A program made the translations under genes and the position numbers. The notes below the pieces were generated by a model. The model worked only from the letters and a program-made list of their open reading frames with translations. It did no database searches and had not been told where the DNA came from. Shown here piece after piece: positions 2,699 to 25,775 of a DNA stretch of 26,450 nucleotides. Origin of the DNA: a virus. Every line of letters begins with the position of its first letter. Positions within the stretch are counted from its first letter, which is position 1. The stretch is from positions 1 to 26,450 of the IMG/VR virus record IMGVR_UViG_3300031524_000075. One strand, written 5' to 3'.

Positions 2699-3405
2699 TC
2701 GAGCGCACCTATTTCGTTCTTCTCAACCTGGACGCATTCAGCGCGGAAATGGCGGGACTCGATTCGACAGAGGAGCGCGGCCAATGGTTGGAGGGGTTTC
2801 AGGTGGGTTCTCATGGGCACACCCTGCGGTTCTCTTGGTCCGAAATCAAGATGGCGGGATACCATTTTGGGGCCGCCTCACTGGCCGAAGCGGAGGCGCA
2901 CCGAGAGAAGAAGGTCCAAGCCGGGAAAAGGTCCGCCCAAATCCGCAAAGACATGAAAGGGAGTGCGCAACCCGAACGATGCTCGAACGATGCTCGAACA
3001 GCGTTCGGCGGGTGTTCCGAACAGACGCCCGAACACCACCCCGAACAGACCGTCGAACAGACTCCGAACCAACCAGTAACCAGTAACCATGAACCAACAA
3101 CCAACATCCAAGATCCAATAACCAAGAAGGAACGAAGGGCGAAATTTGTTCCGCCCACCCATGAAGAGGCGATGGCCTACGCCAAGGAGATCGGGTTCAC
3201 GCGCTGGGAAACTTGGATGGACCACTACAAAGCGAACGGATGGATGACAGGCAAGGTGAAGATGGTCGATTGGCACGCTTGCATGGATAAATGGAATCGC
3301 GAAGGAACGTTGCAAACAAATCAGAAACCACAAAGAAAAGGAGTGCAATTCAATGGATTTGCCACAACGGATTACACCGCAGGACTTGACGAATACAATA
3401 AATAG
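2695..3405 (+). CDS. Phage replication initiator / organizer-like protein
   Basis: A 236-residue protein starting at ATG 2695. Its C-terminal part, from about residue 150, reads FVPPTHEEAMAYAKEIGF, then WMDHYKANGWMTGKVKM and DWHACMDKWNREG. This is the C-terminal pattern seen in phage replication proteins encoded just before a DnaC-like loader. The N-terminal part (1-85) is not a typical winged helix that I recognise. The middle (about 93-145) is a Gln/Pro/Thr/Glu-rich linker whose DNA holds two repeat arrays described separately. Gene order, with the helicase loader directly downstream and overlapping by 53 bases, mirrors lambda O-P. Origin binding is inferred from this context. Confidence 0.7.
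   Translation: MIERTYFVLLNLDAFSAEMAGLDSTEERGQWLEGFQVGSHGHTLRFSWSEIKMAGYHFGAASLAEAEAHREKKVQAGKRSAQIRKDMKGSAQPERCSNDARTAFGGCSEQTPEHHPEQTVEQTPNQPVTSNHEPTTNIQDPITKKERRAKFVPPTHEEAMAYAKEIGFTRWETWMDHYKANGWMTGKVKMVDWHACMDKWNREGTLQTNQKPQRKGVQFNGFATTDYTAGLDEYNK
2973..3126 (+). repeat. Candidate replication origin: CGAAC iterons plus heptamer tract
   Basis: Eight CGAAC motifs start at 2973, 2984, 2995, 3018, 3030, 3042, 3054 and 3065. The steps are 11 or 12 bases except for one of 23, in which an inverted copy (GTTCG at 3003-3007) sits. The 11-base steps shift the codon frame, so this is a DNA-level repeat and not only a protein repeat. Directly after it come eight tandem heptamers of type A(A/T)CCANN from 3071 to 3126, again out of phase with codons and A-rich. 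Iterons beside an easily melted tract inside an initiator gene match the lambdoid origin plan. Confidence 0.6.
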
Positions 3406-4219
3406 TCCGCGTGCGCCAATGGAATTTCCAGTCCATCCAGCCAACATATTCGAGGCGGGAACATACGAATGGACGGAATTCGAGATACGAGAGCTTCGTA
3501 GGAGCCAAAGAGAATTCGATTTCGATCCAGAAAAGGTTGCAAGGCTTCAATGCAGGATTGAAGAGATTTGCGCAACCGAACACGGACGCAAGTTTTTGGC
3601 TCGGGAAGAGGCTATCGAAATTTCGTGCGCATGGGATCGCGCCAAGAGGGAAGGAGGGGTAAAATCCCGGTACATCGGGAAGGGGCTCAAGGAATTCGAG
3701 GCCCCCACGAAAGAACACCAGCGAGCCAAAAATGCAATCGAGCGCATGGCGATGGATCGAAAAAGCTCCGCGATGGTTCTCCTTTTTGGCCCCCCTGGCA
3801 CCGGCAAGACGCATCTGGCAATCGCAGCCCTGCATCACCGCTTCCGGATCGACCAGAACCGATTCGCCGGGGAATACATCACCGCCGCCGAGATCGCCCA
3901 GGAGGTCCGAGAAAGCTACAACGACGAGGACCATGGCACGACGGAGAAAGGGATCTTGGGGCGACTCATGGGGCGCGGGCTCTTGGTTGTGGACGAGGTT
4001 GGTGCTGGCCTGGGCAGCGACCACGAGCGGGCCATGCTGAACGCGGTCGTCTGCGGACGGTACAACAACCTCCTCCCAACGATCCTGATCTCCAACCTGG
4101 GGCTCGACGCGATCAAGTTGGCGGCGGGCGACCGCATCATGGACCGACTCAAGGAGGATCATGGCAGCGCGGCGATCCCGATGGCCTGGGCGTCCTGGAG
4201 AGGAAGGAAGACAGCATGA
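3353..4219 (+). CDS. DnaC-like AAA+ helicase loader
   Basis: A 288-residue ATPase of the DnaC/IstB type that would load the replicative helicase at the phage origin. Walker A is GPPGTGKT at residues 146-153, Walker B LLVVDE at 210-215, a sensor-1 type SNLG at 247-250, and an arginine-finger box RIMDRL at 261-266. The N-terminal 120 residues, which would contact the helicase, are not conserved enough to name. ATG 3353 lies 9 bases after aaaggag. The gene overlaps the initiator-like gene by 53 bases and ends in ATGA with the next one. Its position is equivalent to lambda P. Confidence 0.9.
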   Translation: MDLPQRITPQDLTNTINSPRAPMEFPVHPANIFEAGTYEWTEFEIRELRRSQREFDFDPEKVARLQCRIEEICATEHGRKFLAREEAIEISCAWDRAKREGGVKSRYIGKGLKEFEAPTKEHQRAKNAIERMAMDRKSSAMVLLFGPPGTGKTHLAIAALHHRFRIDQNRFAGEYITAAEIAQEVRESYNDEDHGTTEKGILGRLMGRGLLVVDEVGAGLGSDHERAMLNAVVCGRYNNLLPTILISNLGLDAIKLAAGDRIMDRLKEDHGSAAIPMAWASWRGRKTA

Positions 4220-4428
4220 ACAGCGCACCGACCGCCCCGACGCCTCCTACCCCCTCCGCAGCGCCAAGGAGAGGCATCACTCTTGACGACCTCTCGCGAC
4301 TCCTGGAGGCTTACGAAAAATTGGACCTCGCGTGCCGGTGTATCGACCACTGCCACCCGCCGTACTCGATTCGGCCCGAGCTTGCGGAAATCGAACGGGT
4401 TCGCGAAGAATTGGGGATGCCGCTATGA
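4216..4428 (+). CDS. Small hypothetical protein (70 aa)
   Basis: It starts at ATG 4216 in the ATGA overlap with the helicase loader and ends in another ATGA overlap at 4425. The first 17 residues are Pro/Ala/Thr-rich, followed by PRRGITLDDLSRLLE and a short helical segment with CRCIDHCH (residues 41-48), which could bind a metal. A similar PRRGI segment followed by an acidic helix occurs near the start of the protein encoded just downstream at 4919-5278. No known family is recognised. Confidence 0.6.
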   Translation: MNSAPTAPTPPTPSAAPRRGITLDDLSRLLEAYEKLDLACRCIDHCHPPYSIRPELAEIERVREELGMPL

Positions 4429-9931: not shown

Positions 9932-12061
9932 ATGGCTGAACGCCCTGGCTTCCTGACAAGAGCAAAGAACGCCGTCTCCCTCCTGATGGGCAAGGATTCT
10001 TGGTTCCCAGCCGGACAGCCACTGCAGGGAGTCGCACCGCCTGACGCCGTGGCCGGTCGGCAATTCGACTTCTCCCCGAACGTCAATGCCATTGTGCAGC
10101 CGCGCGGCGAGGACTTCGGCTCCCGATCGATCCGATTCCCACAACTCCGATTCCTAGCCGATTCCGTCGAGGTCCTTCGGCTGGTCATCGAGACCCGCAA
10201 GGATCAGATCTGCGGAATGGAATGGGACTTCCGGGTCATCGGCCAAAAGGGCCAAGCCTCTCGGAACGATCCCCGTGTCCAGTGGTGCCGCAAGTTCTTC
10301 CGCCGCCCGGACGGTGCCCACGACTTCCAGACTTGGCTCCGGATGATCCAGGAGGACCTCAACGTCCTGGACGCCGTAGCGATCCGCTGCCAACGCAACG
10401 ACCAGGGCGACATCCTGGCCTTCGAGCAGGTGGACGGCGCGACGATCAAGCCGCTCATGACCGACATGGGCCGGATCCCTGCGGCGCCCTACGAGGCTTT
10501 CCTCCATGTCCTCCACGGGATCTCCGCGATCTCCTACAGCGTGGACGATTTGATCTACAAGCCCCGGAACCTCCGGATCAATTCGCTTTACGGGTACGGC
10601 CCGGTCGAACAGATCCAGGTGTACGCCAACATCACGATCCGTCGCCAGATGCAGCAGCTCGGGTACTTCACCGACGGCAACCTTCCAGAGGGCATGGTTC
10701 CTGTTTCCGGTACAGCCGAACAGGTCGAGAAGTTCCAGCGCATTTGGGACGCTGGGGAGATCGAGGGGCAGAAGATTGGCCGCGTCCGCTTCGTGCCGGC
10801 CGACACCGCCTCGAAGTTCATCCCCTTCAAAGATGCCGTCCTGGCCGACGCCTTCGATGAATGGATGGCCCGGATCATCTGCTACACCTTCGCCGTCGAG
10901 CCGACGCCATTCATCAAGGCGGTCAACCGGGCGACCGCGGAGACGGCACGCGACCAAAGCTCCAAGGAAGGCGTTTCGGTCCAGCTCAAGTGGGTCAAGA
11001 GCCTCCTGGACGAGATGGTCCAGGAATACCTTGGCTTCGAGGAGATCGAGACCTTCGTCGCGCCGATTGACGAGACGGACCCGATCGATCTCGGGGCGCA
11101 TTGCCAGATCCTGGTCGAATCCGGAATCATGCGCGTGGACGAGGCGCGGGAAAAGCTCGGGCTCGAAGGCGATGCCCCGCTTCTTCCCGCGCCTCCACAG
11201 GCTCCGACCGAAGAGACGCCGGGCGCCCCGGTTCCCGTGGCCGCGCCGAAGCCTCCGGAAGCCCAACAGGTCGCGCACGTTGCCCGCCTGAATCGCGCCG
11301 TGTTCAACGCCAAGCGGTCCCGCGCCCTGGCGGTCAAGCGTGAAACGGCGATCACCGATTCCGTTTTCTCCTACTTCCAGAAGCTCGCGAACCATGCCGC
11401 CGAAGAGATCGGAAAATCGATCCATCGTGTCCAGCGTGCGGACTCCGAGGATGGATTCGATCCGGACACGATCAACCTTCAGGAGGACAATTTCCTCAAA
11501 GCCGTGGGTCCGTCGATTGAATCCATCTTCGGGGATTCCGCATCGATTGCCCTGGACGAAACGGGAGCCGCGGTCAAGCTCGGGTTCAAGGCGGAATCCG
11601 CCGAATGGGCCAAGGAGCGGGGGGCATGGCTGGTCGGGAAGCATGTCACGGACGAAGGCGAGGTCGTGGACGCGATCCGTCCTGAGTACCGGGTGACGGA
11701 CATTTGCCGCCAATCCATCCGCGACGTGACTGCCCAGGCCACCGAAGAGAACTGGACCACCTCGAAGATCGCGGAAGTCCTGAAGGACGACCACGCATTC
11801 AGCCGCGCCCGCGCCCAGACCATCGCATCGACGGAAATCGTCAACGCGGACGAGCAAGGGAAGCTCGCGGGTTGGAAGGCTTCGGGCCTGAAGCTCCAGA
11901 AGCGGTCCATCCTGGGATCCAACGAGAACCACGGAGCGGACGACATCCTCAACGCGGCCGAGGGATGGATCCCGCTGAATGACCCGTACCAGGACGGGAA
12001 TCAGGCTCCTCCTCTGCACCCAAATTGCAGATGTACCTCAGTCGCAAGGAGCATTCCGTGA
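9932..12061 (+). CDS. Portal protein fused to a MuF-type minor head domain
   Basis: A 709-residue protein with ggaagg about 17 bases and weaker purines closer to ATG 9932. Residues about 40-415 have portal features: LRLVIETRKDQICGMEWDF, FEQVDGATIKPL, INSLYGYGPVEQI and a C-terminal clip/crown region ending near EKLGLEGDAP. A Pro/Ala-rich linker (about 416-446) joins a helical region and a final MuF domain (about 626-706) with ARAQTIASTEIVNAD and the hallmark PPLHPNCRC. Portals form the dodecameric DNA entry ring; MuF proteins sit with them inside the head. In most phages these are two genes. The GTGA overlap couples it to the protease gene. Confidence 0.88.
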   Translation: MAERPGFLTRAKNAVSLLMGKDSWFPAGQPLQGVAPPDAVAGRQFDFSPNVNAIVQPRGEDFGSRSIRFPQLRFLADSVEVLRLVIETRKDQICGMEWDFRVIGQKGQASRNDPRVQWCRKFFRRPDGAHDFQTWLRMIQEDLNVLDAVAIRCQRNDQGDILAFEQVDGATIKPLMTDMGRIPAAPYEAFLHVLHGISAISYSVDDLIYKPRNLRINSLYGYGPVEQIQVYANITIRRQMQQLGYFTDGNLPEGMVPVSGTAEQVEKFQRIWDAGEIEGQKIGRVRFVPADTASKFIPFKDAVLADAFDEWMARIICYTFAVEPTPFIKAVNRATAETARDQSSKEGVSVQLKWVKSLLDEMVQEYLGFEEIETFVAPIDETDPIDLGAHCQILVESGIMRVDEAREKLGLEGDAPLLPAPPQAPTEETPGAPVPVAAPKPPEAQQVAHVARLNRAVFNAKRSRALAVKRETAITDSVFSYFQKLANHAAEEIGKSIHRVQRADSEDGFDPDTINLQEDNFLKAVGPSIESIFGDSASIALDETGAAVKLGFKAESAEWAKERGAWLVGKHVTDEGEVVDAIRPEYRVTDICRQSIRDVTAQATEENWTTSKIAEVLKDDHAFSRARAQTIASTEIVNADEQGKLAGWKASGLKLQKRSILGSNENHGADDILNAAEGWIPLNDPYQDGNQAPPLHPNCRCTSVARSIP

Positions 12062-13353
12062 AGCCCCTAGTCATCCCGAAGTCGCTTCCCGCGCTTCGCC
12101 GCGCCAAGCCTTCACGCCGCCTGAATCGTTCGTTCAAAATCTGTCGCGTGGACGCCGAACAGCGGATCGTCGAAGGCATCGCGGCTACGGATCAGGAAGC
12201 GACCGACGGCTACATCATCACCAAAGATGCGATGCTCGAAGCGTGGCCCGAATACATGAAGTTCGGGAACATCCGCGAGATGCACCAGGACATCGCGGCC
12301 GGAGTCGTTCGCCAATGGGAGATGCAGGAAGACGGGATGCACATCTCCGTCTTCGTCGCCGACGACTCCACCTGGAACAAGGTCAAGACGGGCGTCCTCA
12401 AGGCGTTTTCCGTCGGATGCGAAGCCGTCCAAGTCATCGGGAAGATTGTCTCGAAAATCTTCCTCTATGAAATCAGTCTCGTTGACCGCCCCGCCGATCC
12501 TGGCGCCGTGGTCACGATGTTCCGCGCAGCCGCTCGGAACGGGATCCACAACCGGGGCTCCAGCCCCAAGGAGAAAACCATGTCCGGAAAAAGCCGGGAA
12601 GAGCTGGTAGCCGGGAAGCCCCCGGCTGTCGGAGCAGTGGGAGTGACGAGGGACGACGACATGAGCGACGCCGCCCCCGGTACCGTTGGCGGTGCCGCTG
12701 GATCGCCCCAAGAGGAAGCGGAAGAGGTCAACATCTTCGGCCTGCTCTCGCAGCACCTGAAGGCCATCGAAGACCTCGTCTCGACCTTGGACGAGCAGCA
12801 CCAGGACGGGGGAACCACTCCGCAGGTCCTGGCGCATGCCCAGGACGCCCATCGGTGCCTCGGACGAGCCCTGATCGCCCACACCAAGGCCATGACCGCC
12901 TACGATCCCGAGGACGGCGAAGAGACCCCCGAAGGTCTCGACAACCCCGTCGAAGCCGGCGACCCGGAGGCCAAGGTCGAGAAGGACGTTCCCGCCGTGC
13001 CGCCCAAGCGTGCCGACGCTGGCCGTCCTGGCGTCTCTCTCCTCAAGCGCGGATCCAATCGCCGCGTGCAGGAGTTGGAGGCTCGCCTCGCGCAGCTCGA
13101 ACGCCGCGCCCCGCTGACCCGCTCCATCCGTCCCGACGGATACCAGCCCGTCGTGGCCGGTGCCCAGCCGGTGCGGACCCTGGAGAAGGCCGAAGACCAT
13201 GTGGAGATCTCTCGCAAGGATCCCACCGACGATGGATTCCCCAAGCAGGGAACCCCCGAATGGAACGCGCTCCCGGAAGCCATCCGGTTCGAGCGTGCGG
13301 CCATCCGCAACAAGAACCAGGAGCCGATTTTCATCGGCCGGAAGGGAGCGTAA
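12058..13353 (+). CDS. Prohead maturation protease with C-terminal scaffold region
   Basis: A 431-residue protein from GTG 12058, with AAGGAG at 12046-12051. Residues 25-160 match the HK97/S78-type prohead serine protease: His76 in REMHQD, Ser118 in KAFSVGC, and Glu138 in LYEISLVDRPADP. Residues 175-431 form a long acidic and then basic helical region with coiled coil (RRVQELEARLAQLERR), as expected for a scaffold. It would be made with the capsid protein, guide shell assembly, then cut it away. An internal start probably also makes the scaffold alone, as in lambda C/Nu3. Confidence 0.88.
   Translation: MKPLVIPKSLPALRRAKPSRRLNRSFKICRVDAEQRIVEGIAATDQEATDGYIITKDAMLEAWPEYMKFGNIREMHQDIAAGVVRQWEMQEDGMHISVFVADDSTWNKVKTGVLKAFSVGCEAVQVIGKIVSKIFLYEISLVDRPADPGAVVTMFRAAARNGIHNRGSSPKEKTMSGKSREELVAGKPPAVGAVGVTRDDDMSDAAPGTVGGAAGSPQEEAEEVNIFGLLSQHLKAIEDLVSTLDEQHQDGGTTPQVLAHAQDAHRCLGRALIAHTKAMTAYDPEDGEETPEGLDNPVEAGDPEAKVEKDVPAVPPKRADAGRPGVSLLKRGSNRRVQELEARLAQLERRAPLTRSIRPDGYQPVVAGAQPVRTLEKAEDHVEISRKDPTDDGFPKQGTPEWNALPEAIRFERAAIRNKNQEPIFIGRKGA
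12580..13353 (+). CDS. Nested in-frame scaffold protein
   Basis: Within the protease gene, ATG 12580 is in frame and has a perfect AAGGAG (12568-12573) with a six-base spacer. This is as good as any start in the window. A 5-bp hairpin (GGGGC 12554-12558 with GCCCC 12563-12567) sits just upstream. It lies right after the end of the protease domain. The product would be 257 residues, starting MSGKSREEL, acidic at first and with a C-terminal coiled coil. Lambda Nu3 is made in the same way. Production is inferred from these signals. Confidence 0.65.
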   Translation: MSGKSREELVAGKPPAVGAVGVTRDDDMSDAAPGTVGGAAGSPQEEAEEVNIFGLLSQHLKAIEDLVSTLDEQHQDGGTTPQVLAHAQDAHRCLGRALIAHTKAMTAYDPEDGEETPEGLDNPVEAGDPEAKVEKDVPAVPPKRADAGRPGVSLLKRGSNRRVQELEARLAQLERRAPLTRSIRPDGYQPVVAGAQPVRTLEKAEDHVEISRKDPTDDGFPKQGTPEWNALPEAIRFERAAIRNKNQEPIFIGRKGA

Positions 13354-13356
13354 GTC

Positions 13357-14814
13357 ATGTCCGACATCCTCAACCTCACCGACGCGACTCGGGCCATCAT
13401 GCAGCTCCAGCGCGCCATCACCACCTCCACGGGACTGAAAGCCTATGACCTCCAGGCCCCCGCGAAGGAACTGATCCCTCTCGTCACCCCCCTGCGGAAC
13501 ATGATCCCCCGCGTCAAGGGTATTGGCGACGTGGCAACGCAGTGGAAGGCCATCACCGGCGTCAACACCGCGCGGCTGACCCCCGGCATCTCGGAAGGCA
13601 ACCGCAACGCCTCGTCCACCACGGGCGTGACCAACATGAGCGCCGTCTACAAGTCCATCGGCTTCGACGACAGCGTGACCGTGCAGGCCGATCTGGCCGC
13701 TCTGGAGTTCACCAGCCTTCCGGCTGACGTGCAGCGTCGGCTCCTGCTCTCGCTGATGATCTCCGAGGAAGCCGTCCTGTTCGGCGGGCAGTCGTCCTGG
13801 GGCCTTGGCCTTACCCCGACCCCCACCGTCGGAACGTCCACCACGGGCGGAAGCGTTGCCGCGGCCACCTACAACGTCTACGTCGCCGCGCTGACCACCG
13901 AGGGCCTTGCCTTGGCCGGTGGCGTGGGCAACTCGGACACGGCGGACACCACGCTGGCCCTGGTGATCCCCTACACCCGCACGAACATGGGCACCAGCTC
14001 GACCGACACCATCCCCGGTGGCGTGGCGCAGCCTTCTGCTGCGGGCGTCCAGATCACCACGGGCGCCACCAGCACGATCACCTGGTCCGTCCCTCCCGTC
14101 CAGGGTGCAGCGGCCTACGCGCTGTTCGTCGGCGTCGGTGCAGGCGCTCGTCTGTACGGCATCTACACCGTGGCCTCGGGAACCATCCTGCGCGTGCCCA
14201 CCACGTCGCAGACGTTCACCACCATCCCGAACGCGGACAACAGCGCCAACCCGCTGGAGTTCGACGGACTGCTTGGCTTGATCGCCAAGCCTTCCTCGGG
14301 TTCGTACTTCCTGAACGGCACGGGCGCTTCGCTCACTTCCGACGGCGCCGCTGGCATCGTGGAGCTGAACAACGCCTTCAACTGGTTCTGGACGAACTGG
14401 AAGCTGTCTCCGACGGACGTGTGGTGCTCCGGCAACATGGCGCAGTCGATCGACAAGCTCATCGTGGCCAACTCCGGCGCCCCGATCCTGCGCGTCGATG
14501 CGGCTCCTGGTGGCGACCTGTCCATGGGACGCCCCAAGCGCACCACGGCGGTCCTCAACAAGATCACCAACGACGACGTTGTGCTGCACGTTCACCCGAA
14601 CTGCCCGGACGGAACGATCCTGTTCTCCTCGGACAAGGTCCCGTTCCCCTCGGCCAACATGGCGAACCCGGTGGAAGTCCACTACCAGCGCGACTACTTC
14701 GCGATCGATTGGCCCATGACCCGTCTCGCCTACGAGTACGGCGTCTACGCGGTCGAGACCATGGCGATGTACGCGCCCGGTGCCTTCGGCGCGATCCAGA
14801 ACGTCCATCCCTAG
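13357..14814 (+). CDS. Major capsid protein with an Ig-like insertion
   Basis: A 485-residue protein with gggag before ATG 13357. The N-terminal 150 residues and the part from about 300 on carry HK97-fold features (PLVTPLRNMIPRVKG, DVQRRLLLSLMISEEAVLFGG, DVWCSGNMAQSIDKLIV, VEVHYQRDYFAIDWPM). Residues about 152-298 are Ser/Thr/Gly-rich beta strands (ATYNVYVAALTTEG, TITWSVPPVQGAAAYALFVG) that look like a fibronectin/Ig-type domain inserted in the capsid fold, probably exposed on the shell. Its place after the protease/scaffold and a terminator behind it fit high expression. Confidence 0.9.
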   Translation: MSDILNLTDATRAIMQLQRAITTSTGLKAYDLQAPAKELIPLVTPLRNMIPRVKGIGDVATQWKAITGVNTARLTPGISEGNRNASSTTGVTNMSAVYKSIGFDDSVTVQADLAALEFTSLPADVQRRLLLSLMISEEAVLFGGQSSWGLGLTPTPTVGTSTTGGSVAAATYNVYVAALTTEGLALAGGVGNSDTADTTLALVIPYTRTNMGTSSTDTIPGGVAQPSAAGVQITTGATSTITWSVPPVQGAAAYALFVGVGAGARLYGIYTVASGTILRVPTTSQTFTTIPNADNSANPLEFDGLLGLIAKPSSGSYFLNGTGASLTSDGAAGIVELNNAFNWFWTNWKLSPTDVWCSGNMAQSIDKLIVANSGAPILRVDAAPGGDLSMGRPKRTTAVLNKITNDDVVLHVHPNCPDGTILFSSDKVPFPSANMANPVEVHYQRDYFAIDWPMTRLAYEYGVYAVETMAMYAPGAFGAIQNVHP

Positions 14815-21071: not shown

Positions 21072-21904
21072 GCCTCGGTTCCATCGTCTGTTCTGCGGGA
21101 ACGGCCCAATTCGAGGGCATGGAGCGCGACCTCACGCTGACCCCTGACATGGGGATTCTCTGGGGCGATTCATTCGGTGGACCTCCGGTGCCCGTCTCGA
21201 TGTGGGGGACCTCCACTTTTGTCCACGACACGGTGGATTTCCAGTTCACCGCTTGGACCGGGCAAACCAACGGCGGAAATATCGAAGCCTTCCTGCCCGG
21301 ATACGCTCCGGGGTGGAAATTTGACCTCTGGCTCCCCGGCGCCCCCTCTGTCGCGGCCTTCCCTGGATTCGGGAACTACGATGCGACCTCCCAGACTTGG
21401 CAGATCAAAAACGTCACCGGCAAGCCCCTGAACAGCATGGGTCAGAAAGCTCCCGTCGTTCCGCTCTGGGGCTACAAGTTCGACTGCCACGCAGCGGCGA
21501 GCGGCTACGGTTCATGGCTGAATGAGCGGGGAGCCATCTCTCCGGTCGCGACATCCGTCCCTGCGCTCCTGGCTCACAAGTTCGTCGCGCACCAGATCCA
21601 GGATTGGAGCCTTTCGGCCACCCCGCTTCCCATGCAATCCGGCGTCGTCTACACCGGGGTTCAGCACGGGCGTCGTCGCGATGCTGCGGTCATGTTTGAC
21701 CACTGCACGGCGGCGGATATGGACGCGCTGATCCTTTGGTATCGGTACCAGGCCGTAGGTGCGGGTCCGTTCACGCTGGCCACTACCGTTCCGTTCGGCC
21801 CTGGCCTCTCGCCGTACTCCTGCCAGGCGTGGCCCACAAAACTTACCGTGACCCGCGTGGCGGGCTACTGGGAGGCCAAATTGGAGATGTCCCTCTATGC
21901 CTAG
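21068..21904 (+). CDS. Distal tail / minor tail protein
   Basis: A 278-residue protein starting in an ATGA overlap with the tape measure. It is rich in Gly, Trp and Tyr and in beta strands (WGDSFGGPPVPVSMWG, WKFDLWLPGAP). The C-terminus, with DMDALILWYRYQAVGAGPFT and VTRVAGYWEAKLEMSLYA, is like the ends of siphovirus distal tail or lambda M/L-type proteins. The gene after the tape measure normally codes for the ring that starts the tail tip. The assignment is mainly positional. Confidence 0.6.
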   Translation: MSLGSIVCSAGTAQFEGMERDLTLTPDMGILWGDSFGGPPVPVSMWGTSTFVHDTVDFQFTAWTGQTNGGNIEAFLPGYAPGWKFDLWLPGAPSVAAFPGFGNYDATSQTWQIKNVTGKPLNSMGQKAPVVPLWGYKFDCHAAASGYGSWLNERGAISPVATSVPALLAHKFVAHQIQDWSLSATPLPMQSGVVYTGVQHGRRRDAAVMFDHCTAADMDALILWYRYQAVGAGPFTLATTVPFGPGLSPYSCQAWPTKLTVTRVAGYWEAKLEMSLYA

Positions 21905-24900
21905 CGGCGGCCTGCTCATCCAAATCACCATGATCTACGCGCCGTCTGGAATCGGCTTGCCCTGGATCGGATACGGTGGGACCCCGCAGATCATCGGGTT
22001 CACGTCGGCGGACAACGACACCACGCAGACGCTGGACGGGACGAACGCGATCATTTTCCAGCATGGCGTCCTGAACACTGACGCCATCGAGCGCACCAAT
22101 GCTCTCGATATCTCAGGAGGCAAAGGGGGGCTCGCCACGGCGCTTTCCGGGGCAATCTCGATGTGGGACCCCACTGGCACCGCCGCCGCCGCGTGGCTGG
22201 CCGGAACACTCCCCCTCCTGAATGCCACAGTCTACCGGGCGTGGATGAACTCGGCGGGCACGATCTACAAGCAGGATCAAATGATGATCCAAGCCGTGGA
22301 CCCCTCGGGCGGCAAGATCACATGCAAACTCGATTCCTTGCTTTTCGTCAACACGCCCCAGCTTTCCCGGACCAGGGTCGCAACACAGATCTCCGTGGAT
22401 CCCTACGATCCACAGAATCCAGTGGACCCGAATTATCAATTAACAGCACCAGTGACGCAGATTGCCCAAAATGCCGGATTCTCTTTCGGGTCACGGCGCG
22501 TAACGCTCAAATCCATAAATCCGCTCGTCGCACAAAAGATCCCAATGTTTGGATGGGGAGCATATTACTCGGGTCCGCTATCGGCGCTCAACGTGAATCC
22601 TGTTGTAATCACCACTGCGACACTGTATCACAAACCGGGAACGGTGGATGTATATCAACATTCAGGGACATTCGTTTCAACGCTGGCATGGTTGGATTTC
22701 GTATTGGAACCAGACTTCGACAGCTTCAACTATCCAAACGGCTCAACAGATCTCGCCAACCTGAAGGCCAGAATCCTGCAATTTGTGAACGCGGGATATC
22801 GAATCGTGGCATCGGACGGAACGTGGTTTGCTGATTTGAATTGCGCGAACTCCTGGACAACGACGGCCGCAGACTTTCGTTTTGAAAATGGCGCAACATA
22901 TCAAATATGCGGAAACCTTTTGATCGGAGATATGACCGATAATCATTCTCCAACAAATGTGGAACGAACAATCATGCGGGCCATTGCGACAACAATCAAC
23001 CCCGACAATTCCAACGGGCCGTACAATGTACCTCCGAGCGGATTGGATCCCACCCAATGTTGTCTCTACGCCGTCCCGTCGCAGCTTGCGGTTTCCGGGA
23101 ATCAAACGAATTTCCGGGGCCTTGGATCTGATCCTCTGGTTGGCGTTACGAACACTGATACGGCGACATTCGGGATTCAAGCTGTGGTAGACGGATCCTC
23201 TGGTGTAGTGATCGCACAGACGCCCCAAAGCTCGCCGGATGGATACATGGCGGCGGCACCGATCATCAATGCGCACATCAGGATCTATCCGGGGGGACCT
23301 GGATTGACGCCGAACGCACAGAGTTACGCTGATTCGGTATTCATTTGGGCGAATGATGATGCTGTTCTTTCGCTTACGTCTGTGGACGGGATTGGAAATA
23401 CTAGCAACATCAACGAGAACCCGAATACGCTTGCGGCGACTCCGCAACTAACATTCGGTGTTACTGGATTGCATACTCCGGATGCGGAAATAATCATTGC
23501 GCTCATGCTCCAATTCATGGACATTGGGGCACAGTACGACTATTTCCAGGTATCTTCTAGTTTTGTCGCACAACTACAATGTCTAACAGGAGAGACATCT
23601 GGCGTCTATAACATCACGTTTGGGGTGATTGCTCCCGGAGAAACTGGAGATATTTATCAAGGCGGGATTCCTCAAAACAGCATCCTAGTGAGTTTCGTTG
23701 GAGGCGTATCCGGGGAAACGCACAATTTTTCGATTGTAAAACAAGCAAGCCCGCTTCCCGTATTCGATTGGATGAATGCGACAAAGAATTTCTCCGATCT
23801 ACAGGGGAAATGGGGAAATGGTTCAGCCTATACGGGCCGCGCTGGGATCCGGGTCTATTTGAATGAGGATTCCGTCCCGTCCACCGCGCATCTGAACGCG
23901 CACCTCGCTCTCCGGGATATGATTTTGTGGGGATTCAAGAAAATTTCCGGGTCGAATCCTGACGTGGTGGTGTGGCCTTTCGGTGTGACCGATCCCGTCG
24001 TCGGGTTCGCGGACTACGGGGACCCTGCGACGCTCCTAGGGGTTGCGGGGAACAAGACCTACCGAGTGACGCCGATCGATTACGATCTCGCGTGGAACCT
24101 GCTCCAGGACCTCACCAGCGACGCAGACGGCCTGAACACGCTCCAGGGTGTAGCGAGCTTGAAGTGCAACTACGGGCATCCCACAGGCTACGTCGCGGCC
24201 GTCGGGACCAATGACTCCGGAAATGTCTACATCTGGCTCGGGCCGGCGAGTGCGCCGGGCGTGCTGACCAAGATCCCATGCCCCTACACCTACTCCGGAA
24301 CCGTCTCGTTCTTCGGGGGGGACACACCCAACGGGACCACGGGGACGCCTCCAGGAACCGCCTTCTGGGTTGGGTTCTCGGACGGATCGATTGCGAAATT
24401 CATCCCATCCTCCCCAACGGCTGGCACCTGGACGAATCTTGGATCCGCAGTGGCTGGAGCCAAGGTGAACGGGTTGGCGTCAGACGGGTCGAGCGCATGG
24501 CACTTCGTGCTCCAGAACGGGCACATCTACGAGTGGAACGGGTCCAGCGGGTCCAATGTCTCTGTGGACTCCTACCTCAACGGGATTGGGTATGAGATCT
24601 CGACCAGTGCATTCCTGGCGGTCGGTGCGTCTGGCGTCTGGCGGAAGACCTCCGGGGCCTACGCGCTCGTCCATGCGCGGACTTTTGGATTCCCATTCGT
24701 AGCCGCGAACAACGGTGCTGTGGTTGTGATTTCACAGATCCTAATCTCGCAGTCTACAGATGGCGGGGCGACCTGGGTGGACTTGCCGAATTTGATAATG
24801 GAGAACAGTTACGCCGGTTTGGCGGTATTCCAGGGGGCGTCTGGGGCTTCAGGGTATCTTGGTCACACTATCGCCTTCCAGGGGTCATCTTGCGCCCTCT

Positions 24901-25775
24901 CTGCCGCCACGACCGATTTCTCCCGGTGGATTCCTTGCGGCAATACAACCCCAGAGATGGTCCTGGAATGGGTCCGGCAGCGATACCTCGGTGGAGCAAA
25001 TGGGTACAATCCACTCCAGCTAGCATATGGCCTGACGCTTGTGACAGATGGCGTATTCGGTGCAACCTTTGATCCGCCAGCACCAGACCAGGAAGGTGTT
25101 CGTGTTGACCAGGCAATCGAGCAAATCTTCTCGGAGTTTTGGTATTTTGCCGGGGAGAACGCATCGTCCCTGGTGGATGGAAGCGCCGACGTTATCCAAC
25201 AAGCGCTTCCTGATCTGGTCCCCGGTGATCTTGTGGACGTATGCACGCTCTTGACCATCAATTTCCAGAAGTGGGCAGGATCCTACCTCCGACAGGCCTA
25301 CATCCGGAACGTGGATGTGGCGTGGGATCCGACGCGCCCAACCTTCTTTTTCAGCGGATGGGATCCGGATGGGTGGAACGCTCCCGCGAACTCGCCGTAC
25401 ACCTCGACGCAAGGCTATGCGATCTGGCTGGCCTGTCGAACCGCGTACCAGCAAACCGGCATCCTTTTCGAGAAGTCGTTGAATTATGACACGATTCACG
25501 ACCCATGGTCACTCGGGCAATCCTGGAGTGGGACTGTTGGGTTCTTTGGTGCCCGAATCAACTGGCTCTGCAAGCAACCACGGTACCTGAAGATCACCGT
25601 CTTTGGGAATGATTCCGCTTCCGCCCTGGCGAACGCTGGGTGCTTCTACAAAGCAAACCAGACGATGCTTGCCATGCGCGGGCTGTCCGTCCCCACCTAC
25701 GGGATCGTGACGCACGCCAGCCACAACCTGGGAACCGGGATCCACCAACTCGAAATCGCCTTCCAGCCAGCATGA
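21897..25775 (+). CDS. Large tail-tip protein with a BNR-type repeat region
   Basis: A 1292-residue protein overlapping the distal tail gene by eight bases. There is no signal peptide. Residues about 1-180 look like a conserved virion-attached part. Residues about 180-700 are encoded by clearly less GC-rich DNA and match nothing I know. Residues about 748-968 are short beta repeats (NDSGNVYIWLGP, WVGFSDGSIAKF, FVLQNGHIYEWNGS) with a clear Asp-box, STDGGATWVDLP, near 953, suggesting a propeller like those of glycan-binding or sialidase proteins. The C-terminal 300 residues end THASHNLGTGIHQLEIAFQP. It is probably the tail hub or host-recognition protein. Confidence 0.7.
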   Translation: MPSGGLLIQITMIYAPSGIGLPWIGYGGTPQIIGFTSADNDTTQTLDGTNAIIFQHGVLNTDAIERTNALDISGGKGGLATALSGAISMWDPTGTAAAAWLAGTLPLLNATVYRAWMNSAGTIYKQDQMMIQAVDPSGGKITCKLDSLLFVNTPQLSRTRVATQISVDPYDPQNPVDPNYQLTAPVTQIAQNAGFSFGSRRVTLKSINPLVAQKIPMFGWGAYYSGPLSALNVNPVVITTATLYHKPGTVDVYQHSGTFVSTLAWLDFVLEPDFDSFNYPNGSTDLANLKARILQFVNAGYRIVASDGTWFADLNCANSWTTTAADFRFENGATYQICGNLLIGDMTDNHSPTNVERTIMRAIATTINPDNSNGPYNVPPSGLDPTQCCLYAVPSQLAVSGNQTNFRGLGSDPLVGVTNTDTATFGIQAVVDGSSGVVIAQTPQSSPDGYMAAAPIINAHIRIYPGGPGLTPNAQSYADSVFIWANDDAVLSLTSVDGIGNTSNINENPNTLAATPQLTFGVTGLHTPDAEIIIALMLQFMDIGAQYDYFQVSSSFVAQLQCLTGETSGVYNITFGVIAPGETGDIYQGGIPQNSILVSFVGGVSGETHNFSIVKQASPLPVFDWMNATKNFSDLQGKWGNGSAYTGRAGIRVYLNEDSVPSTAHLNAHLALRDMILWGFKKISGSNPDVVVWPFGVTDPVVGFADYGDPATLLGVAGNKTYRVTPIDYDLAWNLLQDLTSDADGLNTLQGVASLKCNYGHPTGYVAAVGTNDSGNVYIWLGPASAPGVLTKIPCPYTYSGTVSFFGGDTPNGTTGTPPGTAFWVGFSDGSIAKFIPSSPTAGTWTNLGSAVAGAKVNGLASDGSSAWHFVLQNGHIYEWNGSSGSNVSVDSYLNGIGYEISTSAFLAVGASGVWRKTSGAYALVHARTFGFPFVAANNGAVVVISQILISQSTDGGATWVDLPNLIMENSYAGLAVFQGASGASGYLGHTIAFQGSSCALSAATTDFSRWIPCGNTTPEMVLEWVRQRYLGGANGYNPLQLAYGLTLVTDGVFGATFDPPAPDQEGVRVDQAIEQIFSEFWYFAGENASSLVDGSADVIQQALPDLVPGDLVDVCTLLTINFQKWAGSYLRQAYIRNVDVAWDPTRPTFFFSGWDPDGWNAPANSPYTSTQGYAIWLACRTAYQQTGILFEKSLNYDTIHDPWSLGQSWSGTVGFFGARINWLCKQPRYLKITVFGNDSASALANAGCFYKANQTMLAMRGLSVPTYGIVTHASHNLGTGIHQLEIAFQPA

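Follow-up and report, generated by a model that had tools for sequence, protein, structure and literature searches.

A second protein, started inside the head maturation protease gene, is very probably encoded by the phage DNA described here. The gene at positions 12058-13353 of the window (the whole 26450-base stretch analysed, an IMG/VR virus record) appears to specify, besides the protease precursor, a nested scaffold that is translated on its own, has the C-terminus of the precursor and works in the manner of lambda C/Nu3. A lambda C/Nu3-like nested scaffold start had been proposed in a preliminary description of this DNA, and the proposal is supported by a site conserved in nine contigs and by a family-wide excess of strong internal starts. 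The head genes of the window are arranged in the order large terminase, portal-MuF fusion, protease-scaffold, major capsid protein, head-tail adaptor and tape measure, and the features that bear on the nested start are as follows.

9932..12061, + strand: portal-MuF fusion gene, directly upstream of the protease-scaffold gene (Pfam Phage_portal and Phage_Mu_F; PHROG portal, 2.2e-64)
12046..12051, + strand: AAGGAG ahead of GTG 12058 at a six-base spacing, for the start of the full-length protease-scaffold gene (sequence)
12058..13353, + strand: full-length protease-scaffold gene, 431 aa, whose GTG start overlaps the portal stop codon (PHROG head maturation protease, 1.5e-11)
12106..12492, + strand: predicted folded protease domain, about residues 17-145 (AlphaFold2 model; VIA-align to T4 gp21)
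12502..12711, + strand: predicted linker, about residues 149-218, containing the nested start (AlphaFold2 confidence, nearly all pLDDT below 50)
12554..12567, + strand: stem-loop GGGGC-TCCA-GCCCC, immediately 5' of the Shine-Dalgarno sequence (sequence)
12568..12573, + strand: AAGGAG, Shine-Dalgarno sequence of the nested start, with a six-base spacer (sequence and relatives)
12580..13353, + strand: proposed reading frame of the nested scaffold, beginning at Met175, 257 aa (sequence and family statistics)
12733..12900, + strand: predicted helical scaffold core, residues ~226-281 (AlphaFold2 model)
13357..14814, + strand: putative major capsid protein gene, directly downstream of the protease-scaffold gene (PHROG phrog_13692, unnamed, 3.2e-104)

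The PHROG match of the capsid gene at 13357-14814, phrog_13692, is listed as of unknown function, and a homologue from Alicyclobacillus phage MMB025 carries the annotation "major head protein"; judged by gene position and the annotation of this homologue, phrog_13692 appears to be a major capsid family. Two other parts of the window also deserve mention. AAGGAGGATC stands ahead of ATG 4161 (window 4151-4286), where a frame of 41 codons begins that overlaps the helicase-loader-like gene 3353-4219 at its end and possibly is a small gene, and a 1292-residue frame at 21897-25775, after the tape measure gene, is without a PHROG match at 1e-3.

The nested ATG at 12580-12582 is in frame as codon 175, counted from GTG 12058, and is preceded by AAGGAG at 12568-12573 across the spacer AAAACC; from it the frame is open to the stop at 13353 and yields 257 residues beginning MSGKSREEL. 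The perfect AAGGAG at six bases ahead of an in-frame ATG, as first described, is thus present in the sequence. The window has a single copy of the exact arrangement, AAGGAGNNNNNNATG, where 0.19 are expected, and 18 of 100 shuffles have one or more; looser AGGAG-N3-9-ATG sites are at the chance level in the window, with 6 found and 5.45 expected. A six-base Shine-Dalgarno match stands before three (3353, 12058 and 12580) of 31 candidate starts picked by the analyst from the open reading frame list, some of which surely are not genes, so that the description of 12580 as a better start than many real ones holds in a loose sense. When synonymous codons are shuffled with the amino acids fixed, the six-base match at the inner site is retained in 42.6% of shuffles; the site alone is therefore no strong evidence, and the sequence by itself is undecisive.

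The protein within which this start lies is a predicted two-part molecule. An AlphaFold2 model built on a 40-sequence alignment is confident to about residue 145, nearly all of residues 149-218 or so fall below pLDDT 50, and helices are predicted downstream of this linker at 226-281, 333-350 and 407-420. Residues H76, S118 and D143 are invariant in 40/40 aligned sequences; together with the match to phrog_9427 (1.5e-11) they place the gene among the phage head maturation proteases of PHROG. Aligned with VIA-align, model residues 17-145 match the T4 prohead protease gp21 over 128 residues (Z 14.0, 2.5 A), and the protease domain matches herpesvirus proteases with Z 5-8; most of the modelled domain thus appears to have the fold common to T4 gp21 and the herpesvirus proteases. 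A Foldseek search of the model against the PDB gives no match under E 0.001 (best E 0.02). Peptidase_S78_2 (XkdF-like) scores 17.5 bits in Pfam, below the curated cut-off of 24, and the gene has no Pfam match above cut-off. The lambda gpC family is absent from the Pfam matches at E 0.1; the structural list is headed by T4 gp21, and absence from that list proves nothing. Helical VIA-align rows covering residues ~215-285 are not taken as relatives.

Because the confident domain stops near residue 145, the model puts some 30 residues between the protease and Met175, which falls within a linker predicted to be disordered and ahead of the helical part. The earlier description, which set the start right at the protease domain end, is accordingly in need of some refinement. 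The helical C-terminal part is probably the scaffold, as suggested by the place of the gene and the predicted helices. One frame thus joins an N-terminal protease to a C-terminal helical part ahead of the capsid gene at 13357 and has an in-frame internal start with its own Shine-Dalgarno sequence at the junction, both of them features of the lambda C/Nu3 kind.

Conservation of the site has been followed through the closest relatives. The protease-scaffold gene is found at 99-100% identity on seven IMG/VR contigs, and the next lineages among the matches listed are L019 and L020, with protease-scaffold identities of 50% and 48%, respectively, and a capsid protein identity of 58%; among these matches the close clade of the window consists of only the three lineages. 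Loss of the ATG or of the AAGGAG in relatives with the same protein, which would have spoken against the nested start, was looked for with a degenerate pattern for DPGAVVTMF, a stretch outside the site, that was scanned over IMG/VR and found nine contigs. The ATG is present in 9/9 and AAGGAG is kept in 8/9, with AAGGA in the ninth (L254, the same contig as L019), and the spacing is six bases in all. L019 and L020 retain the ATG at the equivalent codon, L020 behind AAGGAG; in L019 three base changes in the hexamer convert Lys-Glu to Lys-Gly and the five-base match AAGGA is still there. Between the window and L020 the patch NNRGxSPKxKxMxG has identical codons at 9/9 shared residues, against 102/185 gene-wide; since the preceding EISLVDRPADPGAVVTMFR block also has identical codons at 17/21, codon conservation at the site is suggestive only. 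An IMG/VR pattern scan for the hairpin, Shine-Dalgarno and ATG block found seven contigs and no clade members beyond those already found, and a scan of contigs of named bacterial genomes gave 96 matched stretches and no relatives.

Family-wide statistics were drawn from a sample of relatives (the best 80 listed per search) comprising 241 protease loci, of which 15 were dropped for lack of the motif or for an open end. The 226 complete genes with an SLVDxPA-type motif reduce to 151 at 80% clustering and, after a further 14 are dropped, to 137 in which the motif is followed by 180 codons or more. As the null, synonymous codons were shuffled within each gene, leaving the protein unchanged. Shine-Dalgarno spacings of 4-11 were allowed in the range and clade tests and of 4-10 in the whole-scaffold test and the 50%-clustering and codon tests; the ranges and thresholds were chosen by the analyst (eight ranges by two thresholds by two start sets, and nine clade-range pairs). 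At +5 to +35 codons, counted from the protease motif, 24/137 genes have an ATG preceded by a match of at least 5, against 10.1+-2.3 in shuffled genes, and in ranges of the same test that lie inside the protease domain the counts are below their own null. The EISLVDRPAN-type group, taken without the clade of the window, gives 16/69 against 4.9+-1.5.

Over the whole scaffold part, an in-frame ATG behind a match of at least 6 is found in 43/137 genes against 19.3+-3.1 shuffled, and behind a match of at least 7 in 21/137 against 5.8+-2.1. There is no excess in the other two frames of the scaffold part (5 against 10.1 and 0 against 1.0), in frame in the protease domain (0 against 2.4), or in the usable controls, 88 capsid genes (2 against 2.1) and 71 portal genes (0 against 4.5). 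With one gene per 50% cluster, 9/25 have a match of at least 6 against 2.8+-1.5, a count reached by 0/200 shuffles; at a match of at least 7 there is no excess, the 2/25 being reached by 46/200 shuffles. A strong match precedes 49/860 ATG codons (5.7%) against 313/34694 (0.9%) for all other codons, the top rate among codons with more than 100 occurrences; for GTG the figure is 10/503 (2.0%) and for TTG 1/336 (0.3%). In 94/137 relatives there is no site with a match of at least 6. Read across relatives, the nested start is borne out as a gene- and frame-specific excess of strong internal starts, but not as a site in every relative. A separate scaffold gene was also sought in 115 non-redundant capsid-bearing loci; a gap of more than 120 bases is present in 10, and in none of them is a separate scaffold convincing.

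The site also occupies different places in different clades. Among the 31 genes of the ELSLVDN-type group none has it at +10 to +36, and a match of at least 6 occurs at +36 to +100 in 11 against 3.7+-1.6; in 10/31 the site is AAGGAGG(T) or AGGAGGT, 7-8 bases ahead of an ATG at +91 to +95, and in the wider ELSLVDN group, near-copies counted, such a site is found in 22/44 loci (L121 at +96 included). In L143, L161, L168, L139 and their relatives, 91-95 codons after the motif, TCCT or a similar CCT stands directly before the ATG (AAGGAGG..TCCTATG); by pairing with AGGA, this CCT could weaken initiation. In ten other genes (L124, L125, L226, L231, L232, L234, L242, L245, L246 and L249) a strong site stands before a recurring MDxE- or MNIE-type scaffold core, and a start there would leave about 106-143 residues to the C-terminal end. 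Four of these genes, L231, L232, L234 and L245, carry another strong site farther upstream and could conceivably give more than one nested product.

On a protease-domain tree, which has few columns and many open forks, the trait of a site at +10 to +36 requires 21 changes against 25.9 in shuffles, a number as low being reached in 2/500. Site-positive genes on the tree are those of the window, L019, L020, L217, L187, L202 and L198, and sisters of positive genes, L203 and L207, are without the site. Streptomyces phage Karp has no strong site. In Thermoanaerobacterium phage THSA-485A (L016), a named phage with a named host, the protease gene Tsac_2860 contains AAGGAGGT-9-ATG at +18 codons. Since related phages keep or move the signal, the nested signal looks real and not accidental.

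It could be argued that Lys-Glu codons of an unstructured linker give rise to the hexamer incidentally, that Met175 is an ordinary methionine and that only the fusion is made. The survival of the six-base match in nearly half of the synonymous shuffles fits this explanation, and several of the matches counted in relatives resemble codon accidents, e.g. GGAGG in Pro-Glu-Ala at the domain end, at +7. However, the excess outlasts synonymous shuffling, is confined to the reading frame and to the scaffold part and is strongest before ATG, and the match is retained in L019 despite the amino-acid change; a codon by-product is thus an improbable account of the site. Still less probable is that NNRGxSPKxKxMxG is kept for its amino acids, e.g. 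as a self-cleavage site, with free scaffold arising by proteolysis in place of a second start. Maturation proteases do cut themselves, and the patch is conserved as protein amid divergent flanks in the window, L019 and L020, but proteolysis predicts neither the excess of ATG with Shine-Dalgarno sequences in relatives whose linker residues differ nor the identical codons at all nine shared residues of the patch. Proteolytic cleavage and a nested start may coexist.

The small hairpin behind which the start was said to lie is only in part what it seemed. A stem of 5 bp (GGGGC 12554-12558 and GCCCC 12563-12567) with a 4-base loop is visible in the computed fold, and the stem is identical in the window, L019 and L020 with a differing loop. 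The 71-base stretch around it folds no better than shuffles in these three (z 0.43, 0.60 and -0.64), and upstream stretches of the listed positive relatives, inspected by eye, have no comparable stem. The stem is thus present, but with folding at the shuffle level and the stem absent upstream in relatives it was rejected as a regulator, and no claim is made for the hairpin as a working element. Stems and internal Shine-Dalgarno sequences do stimulate frameshifting and pausing, and the stem at the site would allow that these elements drive ribosomal frameshifting or pausing, not initiation. This is hardly credible, as no standard slippery heptamer is seen near the site (read by eye, without a scan), the ATG stands at unchanged spacing in all nine contigs, and in relatives the Shine-Dalgarno sequence and ATG come with other upstream sequences; frameshifting at the nested site was consequently set aside.

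For the nested scaffold start, the reading preferred here, the following scheme may be drawn. Initiation at GTG 12058 would yield the 431-residue protease-scaffold fusion, and initiation at ATG 12580 a 257-residue scaffold without the protease. Since both starts have an equal AAGGAG at six-base spacing and the inner ATG is stronger than the outer GTG, more scaffold than protease is expected to be synthesised. Free scaffold and the product of the adjacent capsid gene would assemble together, a few fusion molecules would enter the procapsid through the shared C-terminus, and the fusion protease would later digest the scaffold. We infer in this scheme the synthesis of both proteins, their ratio, their role in assembly and the recruitment of the protease by the shared C-terminus from the position and conservation of the site, the gene- and frame-specific excess of starts and the predicted domain boundary. 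For tailed phages with a T4/herpesvirus-like head protease generally, the odds lean slightly toward the nested scaffold being a recurrent device that sets the scaffold-to-protease ratio, gained, lost or moved several times (~15-30 codons or ~91-95 codons after the motif, or before the ~106-143-residue core). Because gene callers report one protease, annotation may miss the free scaffold, a major component of the procapsid, in a large group of phages, and phages with the device at different places, kept or lost, would form a natural series in which scaffold dosage can be tested against head assembly.

The nested protease-scaffold plan itself is already known. A passage in PMC8508860 places the lambda protease and scaffold in a single gene, and for the overlap of C and Nu3 that paper cites Shaw and Murialdo 1980. 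As in lambda C/Nu3, the gene of the window combines an N-terminal protease and a C-terminal scaffold in one frame between the portal and capsid genes; unlike lambda C/Nu3, its modelled protease matches T4 gp21 and the herpesvirus proteases in fold. In lambda too the scaffold is started inside the protease gene, and lambda gpC belongs to another protease class. The layout of the capsid module also differs from that of the Mu-like phages (KS10 gp28/gp29), whose protease family is different from that of the window. The gene is like the XkdF-like (Peptidase_S78_2) proteases in its weak Pfam match, its PHROG head maturation protease matches and its position before the capsid gene, and for this protease family the open-licence literature searched yielded no description of a nested scaffold start. 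What is new is therefore the T4/herpesvirus-like class of the protease and the family-wide relocation of the start, and the nested protease-scaffold plan is thereby extended to a class of phage proteases with a fold also found in herpesviruses. Herpesvirus protease-scaffold genes (UL26/UL26.5 and UL80/UL80.5) make their nested product from a separate transcript; unlike UL26.5 and UL80.5, the product proposed for the window would arise by internal initiation of ribosomes on a single message, and the nested scaffold, if real, would be the ribosomal counterpart of the herpesvirus nested scaffold transcript.
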